Source: Streptomyces sp. AcH 505
GTDB taxonomy: Bacteria; Actinomycetota; Actinomycetes; Streptomycetales; Streptomycetaceae
DNA: 48,841 nt
Reading direction: 5' to 3'
Assembly (NCBI RefSeq): GCF_000818175.1
Contig: NZ_JTIY01000002.1
Location: 93,272 to 142,112, forward strand
Shown here: positions 16,624 through 19,022 of the stretch, one piece after another
Layout: every line of letters starts with the position of its first letter
How positions within the stretch are numbered: position 1 is the stretch's first letter
The notes under the pieces: model-generated
Seen by the model: only the letters and a program-made list of their open reading frames with translations
The model's database searches: none
Told to the model about the DNA's origin: nothing
Position numbers and translations under genes: made by a program

Positions 16624-17097
16624 TCAGCGCACCCGGCCGTACCAGACGCTCTTGGACCAGATCCGTTCGAGCCGCACCACGGCGCCCGTCTTCGGCGAGT
16701 GCCAGATCTTGCCGCTGCCCGCGTAGATCCCCACGTGGTAGACGCTGCGCCCGGAATGGAAGAACACCAGGTCGCCCTGGCGCCGTCCGGCGGCCGGGAC
16801 ATGCCTGGTGTTGTTGTACTGCTGCTGTGTCGTGCGCGGGAGCTTCTTCCCCGCCTGTTTGTACGAATAGAGCGTCAGCCCTGAGCAGTCGAAGCGTCTC
16901 GGACCTGACGCCCCCCACTGATAGGGAGCCCCCTTCTTCGACGCGGCGATCTGCAGCGCCTTGGTCGCCAGCGTGGCGGCATGCGCCTCGGCGGCCGCAC
17001 CCGGCGCCAGCAGCATGCCGCCGACGGCGACGAGCGTCAGACCCGAGACGGTACGGGCCCGTGAGAGCAAGGACGGGACATGTGTCTGCGCAGTCAT
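16624..17097 (-). CDS. Secreted NlpC/P60 family cell-wall hydrolase (C40 peptidase)
   Basis: 157 residues from the ATG at 17097. A signal peptide occupies about residues 1-40 (RARTVSGLTLVAVGGMLLAP then AHA). The catalytic domain carries Cys71 in RFDCSGL, His121 in YHVGIYAGSG and His133 in IWHSPKTGAV, the C40 triad. It probably cleaves peptide cross-links in peptidoglycan during growth or spore germination. It has only the catalytic domain, with no LysM or coiled-coil part. A cyclic-di-AMP riboswitch occupies its leader. It is convergent with the ATPase gene (14 bp gap). Confidence 0.93.
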   Translation of the reverse strand: MTAQTHVPSLLSRARTVSGLTLVAVGGMLLAPGAAAEAHAATLATKALQIAASKKGAPYQWGASGPRRFDCSGLTLYSYKQAGKKLPRTTQQQYNNTRHVPAAGRRQGDLVFFHSGRSVYHVGIYAGSGKIWHSPKTGAVVRLERIWSKSVWYGRVR

Positions 17098-17103
17098 GCG
17101 CAA

Positions 17104-17285
17104 CCCTTCGTCAGCCGCCTGTGAAGGATGACCTGTCGGGTTCGGGCTGGCGAAGTTGCCCGGCCGCCGCGGCGGCTTCACCCCGAGGGAGACTCGTTTC
17201 CGGGCCGTCCCGTACTGCTCGGGTCCTCCACTCCTGCCGATCCACTCATGTCGACCAGGCATCCGGACGGCGGCAGGACTCGGCG
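17104..17285 (-). promoter_or_regulatory. Cyclic-di-AMP riboswitch (ydaO/yuaA type) in the NlpC/P60 leader
   Basis: Read on the minus strand, the leader holds the conserved ydaO core segments in order: GGGACGGCCCGGAAACGA, then CTCGGGGTGAA, then the signature CCGAACCCGACAG (17145-17133), then CAGGCGGCTGACGAAGG just before the start codon. CCTGCCG (17277-17271) and CGGCAGG (17239-17233) form a peripheral stem. This class senses cyclic-di-AMP and in Streptomyces commonly precedes cell-wall hydrolase genes such as rpfA and NlpC/P60 genes, usually turning expression down when the ligand is high. The 5' boundary is approximate. Confidence 0.87.
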
Positions 17286-17383
17286 TCCGCCCGGACCGCC
17301 CCGCCGTGGTGGCGGGGTCTTGCGACCTGTCACCCAGGGATCGTGTCCCGGCACGGGGCGTTTTCCGAGTTGAAATAGTGATA

Positions 17384-17399
17384 TGTGAAATACGTCACT
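17384..17399. promoter_or_regulatory. Crp-like binding site upstream of the riboswitch
   Basis: TGTGA-AATACG-TCACT fits the TGTGA-N6-TCACA Crp consensus with one mismatch, and fits the GTG-N6-GNCAC form I recall for Streptomyces Crp. It lies about 290 bp upstream of the NlpC/P60 ATG, just beyond the riboswitch and thus near the expected promoter. Confidence 0.5.
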
Positions 17400-17406
17400 T
17401 TTGACC

Positions 17407-17424
17407 CATCCGGTGATCCGGATG
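17407..17424. repeat. Inverted repeat CATCCGG-TGAT-CCGGATG
   Basis: A perfect 7+4+7 inverted repeat directly next to the Crp-like site. The rest of the gap 17425-17600, downstream of clpP, shows nothing else I can support. It could be a further operator of the NlpC/P60 promoter or a weak terminator. Confidence 0.4.
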
Positions 17425-17600
17425 ACGATCAGTCGCCACCCACGCCCCGCCGCCGAGGGCCCCACCTGCGGCGCGAGCGCGGCGCGCCCGGCAAACCTCC
17501 GCCGCGTCCCGCAACTCGCGCCCGTCAACCGGTCGTCGCGTCTCCTACGCCGAACGTGCGGGGCGTGTCGCCGTCGGCGCGTCCGAACGGGGGGCGCGGC

Positions 17601-18251
17601 TCACCGGCCGCCGGCCGGCCCGGGGACACTCGGCGACGTCTTGCGGTTGCGGACCACGTGGTCGACCAGCCCGTACGCCTTGGCGCCGGCCGCGTCGAAG
17701 ATCGTGTCCCGCTCGATGTCCACGGCCACCCGCGCGTCGTCCTGGCCGGTGTGGCGGACGAGGATGCCCGCCAGCATGGCGCGCTGGCGCAGCAACTCCC
17801 CGGCGTGGATCGCCAGGTCGGACGGCTGGCCCTGGACGGGCTCCTCGAAGCCGGGCTGCTGGAGCACGATCCGGGCGCCCGGCAGCGCCATCCGCTTGCC
17901 CGGGGCGCCCGCGGCCAGCAGCACGGCCGCCGTGGAGACGGCCTGGCCGAGACAGGTGGTCTCCACGTCGCAGGTGATCATCTGCAGCGTGTCGTAGATG
18001 GCCGACATGGCGCTGATCGAGCCGCCCGGCGAGTTGATGTACAGACAGATGTCCCGGTCGGGCGCCGCGTATTCGAGATGCAGCAGCTGGGCGATCACGT
18101 CGTTGGCCGAGGTGTCGTCGAGTGCGGTGCCGAGGAAGATGATCCGCTCCTCGAACAGCTTGGAGTACGGATCGAGCGTGCGGGTCCCGTTGCTGGTCCG
18201 CTCGGAGAACTCGGGCAGGACGTAGCGGGCCGAAGGGCGGTTCATGGGCAT
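17601..18251 (-). CDS. ClpP-family protease subunit with Gln in place of the catalytic His
   Basis: 216 residues from the ATG at 18251 ([15 protein letters not shown]), with AGGAGAG 5 bp upstream; the ATG two codons later is an alternative. The ClpP fold is clear: [19 protein letters not shown], then [11 protein letters not shown] with nucleophile Ser106, then IERDTIF with Asp182. At the catalytic His position, normally MIHQP, it reads VLQQP, giving Gln131. The conserved [11 protein letters not shown] and RHTGQ parts remain. This may be an inactive or regulatory subunit that mixes with another ClpP; I recall similar QQP variants in Streptomyces ClpP paralogues, so it may be a subfamily trait. 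No Clp ATPase or second clpP is adjacent. Confidence 0.9.
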
Positions 18252-18281
18252 GGCTCTCCTCATGCGGCGCTCTGTAGAAAA

Positions 18282-18296
18282 TGTACAGGACGTACA
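18282..18296. promoter_or_regulatory. Operator candidate TGTAC-N5-GTACA between clpP and phd
   Basis: A perfect 5+5+5 inverted repeat in the 63-bp gap between the divergent ClpP and antitoxin genes. A further TGTA lies at 18273. Phd/YefM proteins usually repress their own promoter by binding short palindromes, which makes this a plausible site that would also cover the clpP promoter. Confidence 0.5.
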
Positions 18297-18314
18297 ACAC
18301 GTAACATGGGGAGC

Positions 18315-18632
18315 ATGGCCTATGAGATTCCGGTGACGCAAGCCCGGGCAGAGCTGGCAGACCTGATCAACCGCGTCGTCTACGGGGACGAGCGCGTGGT
18401 CGTGACCCGGCACGGCAAGCCGCTCGTGGCCCTGGTGTCCGCCGCAGACCTGGCGCGACTTGAGCGCGAAGAGGCACAGGAGGAGCAGCGGGAGCGGGAG
18501 GAGGAGCAGGTGATCCGGTCCGTCTCGTCCGTCGGCCGGGGACCGTCCGCTCCCGGCGAACCGGCCCGCTTCGGCATCGCCGCCCACCACCCCGGGCAGC
18601 ACCGCTCCGAGCACCCGCGTGACCAGCGGTAG
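18315..18632 (+). CDS. Phd/YefM-family antitoxin (type II), orphan
   Basis: 105 residues from the ATG at 18315, with GGGGAG just upstream; an in-frame ATG at 18306 is possible. [20 protein letters not shown] followed by [19 protein letters not shown] is the classic Phd/YefM DNA-binding fold (residues 1-50). After it comes a Glu/Arg-rich helix ([17 protein letters not shown]) and a disordered tail, in place of a recognisable toxin-binding motif. No Doc, RelE or YoeB toxin follows; the next gene is ureA, 87 bp downstream. It is divergent from the ClpP paralogue. It may act as a stand-alone repressor. Confidence 0.88.
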
Positions 18633-18719: not shown

Positions 18720-19022
18720 ATGCAACTGACCCCGCACGAGCAGGAACGCCTGCTCATCCATGTGGCAGCGGACGTGGCGGAGAAGCGCAGGGCGCGCGGA
18801 CTGCGGCTCAACCACCCCGAGGCCGTCGCCCTGATCACCTCACACCTGCTCGAAGGCGCCAGGGACGGCCGTACCGTCGCCGAACTGATGGCCTCGGGCC
18901 GCACGGTGCTCGGCCGCGCCGACGTGATGGACGGGATCCCCGAGATGATCCACGAAGTGCAGGTGGAGGCCACCTTCCCGGACGGCACGAAGCTCGTCAC
19001 CGTCCATGACCCGATCGTCTGA
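18720..19022 (+). CDS. ureA: Urease gamma subunit
   Basis: 100 residues, [20 protein letters not shown], full length for the family. [38 protein letters not shown] and the terminal VTVHDPI are conserved UreA blocks. With UreB and UreC it forms the (abc)3 nickel enzyme that hydrolyses urea to ammonia and carbamate in the cytoplasm. First gene of ureABCFGD; the ribosome site GAGGTGGAG is close upstream. Confidence 0.98.

Follow-up and report, generated by a model that had tools for sequence, protein, structure and literature searches.

In the genus Streptomyces, clpP5, the gene for a fifth ClpP subunit, and an orphan antitoxin gene of the Phd/YefM family (phd) are conserved as a pair together with a box between them. 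The box stays with clpP5 when the two genes are separated, ClpP5 is a relative of ClpP2, and its catalytic triad has been lost repeatedly, though not in all species, under purifying selection. One scheme, to which about an even chance is given, is that these parts form a regulated clpP5 module, in which Phd would repress clpP5 via the box and ClpP5 would serve as a docking subunit in mixed Clp rings. The pair was followed up from a stretch of 48,841 nucleotides of Streptomyces sp. AcH 505 (contig NZ_JTIY01000002.1, positions 93,272 to 142,112), here called the window.

The clpP5 locus and its setting

The 9.0-Mb host genome holds five ClpPs, arranged as two adjacent pairs and the clpP5-type gene of the window. 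The latter (17601..18251, minus strand) is full length and ClpP2-like, and its product matches the whole-length Pfam CLP_protease profile (PF00574, E 2e-64, residues 22-203). The Ser-His-Asp triad is incomplete; alignment bears out the residues named in the first-pass annotation, with Ser106 and Asp182 retained and Gln131 at the position of the catalytic His, where the motif reads VLQQP and Mycobacterium tuberculosis ClpP2 has LIHQP.

On the other side of a 63-bp gap lies phd (18315..18632, plus strand), whose product has a clear Phd/YefM domain (PF02604, E 9e-14; TIGR01552, E 7e-16) and a conserved C-terminal tail. The gap and its palindrome TGTAC-N5-GTACA (TGTACAGGACGTACA, 18282-18296) were found as first described, and the palindrome is overlapped by a conserved 24-bp box at 18272..18295 (no strand), a probable clpP5 operator with the consensus CTGTAAAAAATGTACAGGACGTAC, here reading CTGTAGAAAATGTACAGGACGTAC. 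A -10-like hexamer, TAACAT (18302..18307, plus strand), was seen by eye 7 nt before the phd ATG, and TANNNT forms recur among relatives; a promoter there and a leaderless start of phd are predicted by eye.

As had been stated earlier, no toxin gene adjoins phd in the window: clpP5 lies upstream and ureA, the first gene of the urease operon (18720..19022, plus strand), begins 87 bp past the phd stop, so that there is no room for one. Behind clpP5, the stretch 17263..17600 (minus strand) is equivalent to a gene that directly follows clpP5 in relatives and is called OrfS here; within the window this stretch has no match to it. Next to it is an NlpC/P60-like frame (by eye; 16624-17262), which is matched in 106 of the 116 loci sampled.

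Conservation of the clpP5-phd pair

The search covered 150 genomes of the genus Streptomyces and gave 116 candidate loci, including that of the window, which were compared with their flanks. In 88 of them a divergent Phd lies no more than 260 bp away, in 16 it is divergent at a greater distance, and in 12 the compared stretch contains no Phd. Two of these twelve (L208 and L209) are not ClpP5, have neither box nor Phd, and were left out of the counts. For nine of the other ten, phd lies at another place in the genome (L269-L277); in the tenth (G003) it sits just outside the compared stretch and hence outside the box counts. A named set of 80 loci has Phd divergent in 76, of which 58 are within 260 bp; eight ClpP5s of the 116 in the sample recur identically in the named set.

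A survey of the pair across genomes had been proposed as a check, and the pair is kept. Among the matches listed, clpP5 is present in 119 of the 150 genomes, all 119 with Phd, versus 3 with Phd among the 31 others (G016, G087 and G139); Phd was the guide by which the ClpP5s of G010, G107, G130, G132 and G145 were found or accepted, so that a diverged ClpP5 without Phd could be missed and the 119/119 is somewhat favourable. The counts are not independent since the genomes are related. Two of the 119, G107 and G145, hold only a truncated or frame-split remnant of clpP5. The pairing of clpP5 with phd is no local accident.

At three further loci (L331, L332 and L328), lone or partial OrfS frames lie beside urease, NlpC/P60-like or Phd genes with no clpP5 in the stretch; these are apparent stages of locus decay.

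The box as a probable clpP5 operator

The palindrome forms the core of the 24-bp box, which is near-invariant and usually single per genome. The exact 15-mer ATGTACAGGAYGTAC occurs once in the host genome and at 109 sites over the 150 genomes, versus 1 for the reversed control, and a looser palindrome occurs at 9 places in the host genome versus 3 for its control. All 146 close pairs of the sampled and named sets carry the box with 0-2 mismatches to ATGTACAGGACGTAC, and so do all 48 clpP5 loci with phd at a distance above 250 bp or with none in the compared stretch; by direct count, both GTAC motifs are present in each of the 146 and each of the 48. The separated phd genes themselves are mostly without it (39/43; 30/34 in the same loci and 9/9 taken from elsewhere in the genome, L269-L277), their best sites having 5-7 mismatches in 300 upstream bases, and the four that have a box sit 260-330 bp away and still share that of clpP5. 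A TAAGCT-like hexamer stands before the ATG in many separated phd genes (by eye).

Since the box stays at clpP5 when phd is elsewhere and separated phd genes are without it, it looks like an operator of clpP5, and on this comparative ground it is probably one. At the antitoxin promoter, the box is common to both genes in close pairs and gone at the 39 separated phd genes; classical autoregulation therefore does not appear to be conserved.

Among genomes, the exact box was found in 105 of 122 that are Phd-positive and in none of 28 that are Phd-negative, eight of the latter assigned by subtraction. The exact form is missing from 17 Phd-positive genomes, 16 of which have a variant with 1-2 mismatches at the locus; the remaining one, G139, has none. 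Only two exact sites are not beside Phd, in G058 and G143, and both lie inside long coding-like frames. A role of the box as a site for a global regulator was rejected on these grounds: usually one site per genome, and stray sites in coding-like frames.

At L259 and L261, clpP5 is gone from the locus and phd retains the box. What remains at L261 is phd, the box and an OrfS frame, which the box now faces directly. Three genomes, G016, G058 and G064 (L260, L267 and L268), have another Phd copy, likewise with the box (0-2 mismatches). It faces a frame that by eye resembles an alpha/beta-hydrolase; behind this frame come a ClpP2-like ClpP with intact Ser and His and then a relative of OrfS, possibly making up a resistance or accessory clpP locus.

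According to the available text of the sources, TGTACA is the core of the operator bound by Escherichia coli YefM, where the centres lie 12 bp apart (PMC7730913), and a similar TGTACA-type pair is present in the Streptomyces yefM promoter (PMC3303803); the half-sites of the box are 9 bp apart, centre to centre. Taken with the Phd/YefM domain, these sequence comparisons strongly suggest that Phd binds the box. The earlier claim that the repressor controls clpP has gained strong comparative support, as the box stays with clpP5, is nearly private to the locus, and is found in none of the 28 Phd-negative genomes.

It is also conceivable that the box, although it goes with clpP5, is the site of a regulator other than Phd or part of a special promoter, Phd being merely a long-standing neighbour by the urease genes. 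The boxless separated phd genes are in keeping with this, and as the two genes adjoin in most genomes, their joint loss alone would give the co-occurrence. However, one site per genome is unlike a global regulator, Phd-negative genomes are devoid of the exact box, the second Phd copies have it beside another clpP operon, its core is that of the YefM operator, and phd has kept it at L259 and L261 though clpP5 is gone. A regulator other than Phd is thus considered rather unlikely.

In the module that is preferred here, phd, the operator box and clpP5 are followed in most species by OrfS. Phd would most likely bind the box and act as a repressor dedicated to clpP5, and phd itself would also be repressed where both genes share the box.

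Catalytic loss and selection in ClpP5

The triad was compared in 116 ClpP5s, namely the 114 sampled ones with L258 (kept unchanged with a masked stretch reading X) and L263. The full Ser-His-Asp triad is present in 43 and broken in 73. His is replaced by Gln, Arg, Ser, Glu, Asp, Lys or Gly, Ser by Ala, Gly, Pro or Thr, and Asp is replaced in 18 of the 116; the triad is intact in 46 of the 80 ClpP5s of the named set. A quick-method tree, computed after removal of the Ser and His columns, took ClpP2/ClpP4-type rows as the outgroup and left out L264, whose match begins with a stop, and L266, whose match lies in two frames; the match of L262 is only 65 aa. The 116 ClpP5 rows split from the ClpP2/ClpP4 rows at 99 SH-aLRT, and 48 of the 132 inner branches have support below 80. 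Early ClpP5 branches have Ser and His, and the minimum number of changes is 7 for His, 15 for Ser and 10 for Asp. The change of His131 to Gln in the window is one of many independent losses in ClpP5.

Relatives with intact Ser and His have the same Phd, box and layout; therefore, the loss of His is not the mark of a special circuit. A special function of the His-less protein was rejected, since triad loss is scattered over the tree and the intact relatives share box and Phd. Of the feedback circuit suggested in the first-pass annotation, the half in which the repressor acts on clpP is the one that has comparative support.

In the same genus, the triad is intact in ClpP1 (33/33 loci), ClpP2 (33/33) and ClpP3 (36/36), and ClpP4 has Gly for the catalytic His in 36/36; the ClpP3/ClpP4 loci examined were L222 (1264000-1272000 of host contig C1), L224-L253 and L312-L317. 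By the Nei-Gojobori method, the median dN/dS was 0.263 for 111 pairs among 71 Ser/His-broken proteins (identity 80-99.5%, dS 0.03-1.5) versus 0.229 for 75 intact pairs, with single-pair maxima of 0.61 and 0.90, respectively. Ser/His-broken ClpP5s remain under purifying selection, and a pseudogene was rejected as the main reading because of the median of about 0.26. A tie between triad loss and the absence of ClpP3P4 is not claimed: the raw Fisher p is 8e-6 (broken in 50/62 without ClpP4 vs 21/54 with it), but only 4 independent pairs lie on supported branches (10 on all), with a sign-test median p of 1.

ClpP5 is closest to ClpP2 (57% identity), followed by ClpP4 (50%) and ClpP1/ClpP3 (45-47%). 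The Tyr of the docking pocket is retained in 116/116 ClpP5s. The pocket of the protein encoded in the window differs from that of ClpP2 at the first position (Cys for Ser) and at the third (Met for Phe/Tyr), which may weaken docking by this protein; the third position drifts in 17 of the 71 broken ClpP5s. As reported in the available text of PMC9765437, ClpP1 provides catalysis and ClpP2 docks the Clp-ATPases, both for S. hawaiiensis in vitro and in S. lividans cells, and a ClpP2 S131A variant is fully active. Since the Ser of ClpP2 is dispensable, a P2-type subunit may be able to lose its triad at little cost. By this analogy, cheap loss in P2-type subunits would fit both the losses in ClpP4 and ClpP5 and their absence in ClpP1 and ClpP3; ClpP2 itself, though P2-type, has retained its triad. 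By the same analogy, ClpP5 would most likely form mixed rings in which a ClpP1-type subunit does the catalysis and ClpP5 offers a docking face for Clp-ATPases, its dose in the rings being set by Phd. Its own active site would not be needed and would therefore decay repeatedly, here from His131 to Gln.

The same losses could be read as those of a poison subunit, which would block the ClpP1-containing protease in mixed rings and be silenced by Phd, in a toxin-antitoxin-like arrangement with a Clp subunit as the toxin. The paralogous ClpP-ADEP disrupts ADEP-activated ClpP1 complexes according to the available text of PMC12607617, and repeated catalytic loss in genes under purifying selection and the tight linkage to an antitoxin gene would suit such a role. 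However, since early ClpP5 branches have Ser and His and 43/116 keep the triad, inactivity is not the ancestral function, and catalytic loss in a P2-type subunit would be expected to be nearly harmless, judging from what is available of PMC9765437. This role appears improbable.

Mere decay of a ClpP5 that no longer has a function is quite doubtful. Triad residues have been lost many times, mean identity is 0.66 for broken and 0.73 for intact ClpP5s versus 0.92 for 8 ClpP2 rows, split or truncated remnants occur in 2 genomes, and clpP5 is absent in 31 of the 150. On the other hand, the dN/dS of the broken copies argues for selection, and an open frame of at least 185 aa is kept in 196/196 loci compared, as are the box and the neighbours.

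OrfS, the third gene

Behind clpP5, OrfS (about 100 aa) is found in 113 of the 114 sampled loci and in 77 of 80 named ones, with one more overlapping. Of the 150 genomes, 122 have it, and the sampled clpP5 loci account for 113. Distances were measured at 191 loci: the start of OrfS comes 4-8 bp behind clpP5 in 171 of these and 7 bp behind its stop in 138, whereas the available text of PMC9765437 describes S. lividans clpP5 as monocistronic. OrfS was not found in the host genome, and the near relatives L006 and L007 are likewise without it; the shorter distance to the next gene suggests that it was lost here by deletion.

Searches of Pfam, PHROGs and PADLOC gave no match for the family, and the best hits in NCBIfam and PDB had E 0.07 and E 0.88. 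An AlphaFold model has three helices (pLDDT 72.5, pTM 0.50), and the best Foldseek hit in a structure search had E 1.1. Among 396 genomes from the phylum, OrfS was found in 11, of which 9 are Streptomyces and 2 belong to another class (G162 and G176; loci L333 and L334). In these two, a ClpP with intact Ser and His and OrfS lie between response-regulator-like and membrane-protein-like frames (by eye), and neither Phd nor box was found near them in the compared stretch. Therefore, as far as the gene order indicates, the link between ClpP and OrfS may be older than that with Phd.

The Phd tail and a possible feedback

The C-terminal tail of Phd is conserved, with F[GD][IVLT] in 121 of 124 proteins, mostly as RFGIAAEHR, and is a candidate partner site or degron. 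It is highly improbable that Phd continues to act on a toxin whose gene lies at another place in the genome: the tail is conserved as a partner-binding tail would be, but there is no toxin in the 87 bp before ureA, the phd-ureA gap is below 250 bp in 13 of 77 measured loci, and five long gaps, inspected by eye, contain TetR-, transporter- or peptidase-like frames.

In the available text of PMC4989188, the half-life of the S. cattleya antitoxin RelB2 is shorter in E. coli with ClpX and any of 4 of the 6 S. cattleya ClpPs. A proteolytic feedback, in which a ClpP complex would set the level of Phd, is putative here and draws on general knowledge and the conserved Phd tail. More tentatively, and with doubt on our part, a toxin-antitoxin module may have been rebuilt as a sensor of Clp stoichiometry, in which the antitoxin, no longer tied to a toxin, would repress the extra Clp subunit from an operator of its own, a Clp complex or OrfS would recognise the RFGIAAEHR tail, and the level of the repressor would report Clp capacity. 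If true, the sensor would set how much of the docking subunit, itself dispensable for catalysis, enters Clp rings.

Comparison with known systems

Inactive ClpP subunits of the ClpR type are present in cyanobacteria and plastids; they are without a full triad and are expected in mixed rings. Unlike ClpR as generally described, ClpP5 shows recurrent loss within one orthologous group in which some members are intact. ClgR and PopR, the regulators of clpP1P2 and clpP3P4, belong to a protein family other than that of Phd. What is available of PMC9765437 describes them in the same genus as dedicated regulators of a clpP operon, like Phd here, and a regulator of this type as itself a Clp substrate. 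Unlike Phd, the proposed repressor, both are activators with other DNA motifs in the accessible part of PMC9775585.

According to the same text of PMC9765437, S. lividans ClpP5 is a fifth, extra ClpP besides clpP1P2 and clpP3P4; by this description the gene of the window is likewise a fifth ClpP outside both pairs. That text mentions no triad loss in S. lividans ClpP5, whereas 73 of 116 are broken here. As with YefM-YoeB of E. coli and the Streptomyces yefM/yoeB, the system has a Phd/YefM domain and a TGTACA core (PMC7730913 and PMC3303803, available text). Unlike them, it has no adjoining toxin, its box stays with clpP5 and not with phd, the half-site spacing is 9 bp and not 12 bp, and Phd has a conserved tail of its own. 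ClpP-ADEP of S. hawaiiensis resembles ClpP5 as an extra ClpP acting through mixed complexes, but it is ClpP1-like and tied to an antibiotic cluster in the available text of PMC12607617, whereas ClpP5 is ClpP2-like. The open-access literature on clpP5 and on ClpP with antitoxins, from which subscription papers are mostly missing, yielded in its available text nothing on the pair, the box, OrfS or the triad loss, and no statement of the role of ClpP5 in Streptomyces.

A regulator and a subunit class can now be proposed for ClpP5 as likely, together with a probable operator and a partner gene that matches none of the families searched; all four lend themselves to tests in common laboratory strains of Streptomyces. 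An antitoxin domain has apparently been reused as a one-locus transcription factor for a protease gene. The many independent catalytic losses in one subunit, set against a triad that is intact at every ClpP1, ClpP2 and ClpP3 locus examined, constitute a natural experiment on why some Clp rings use two kinds of subunit.
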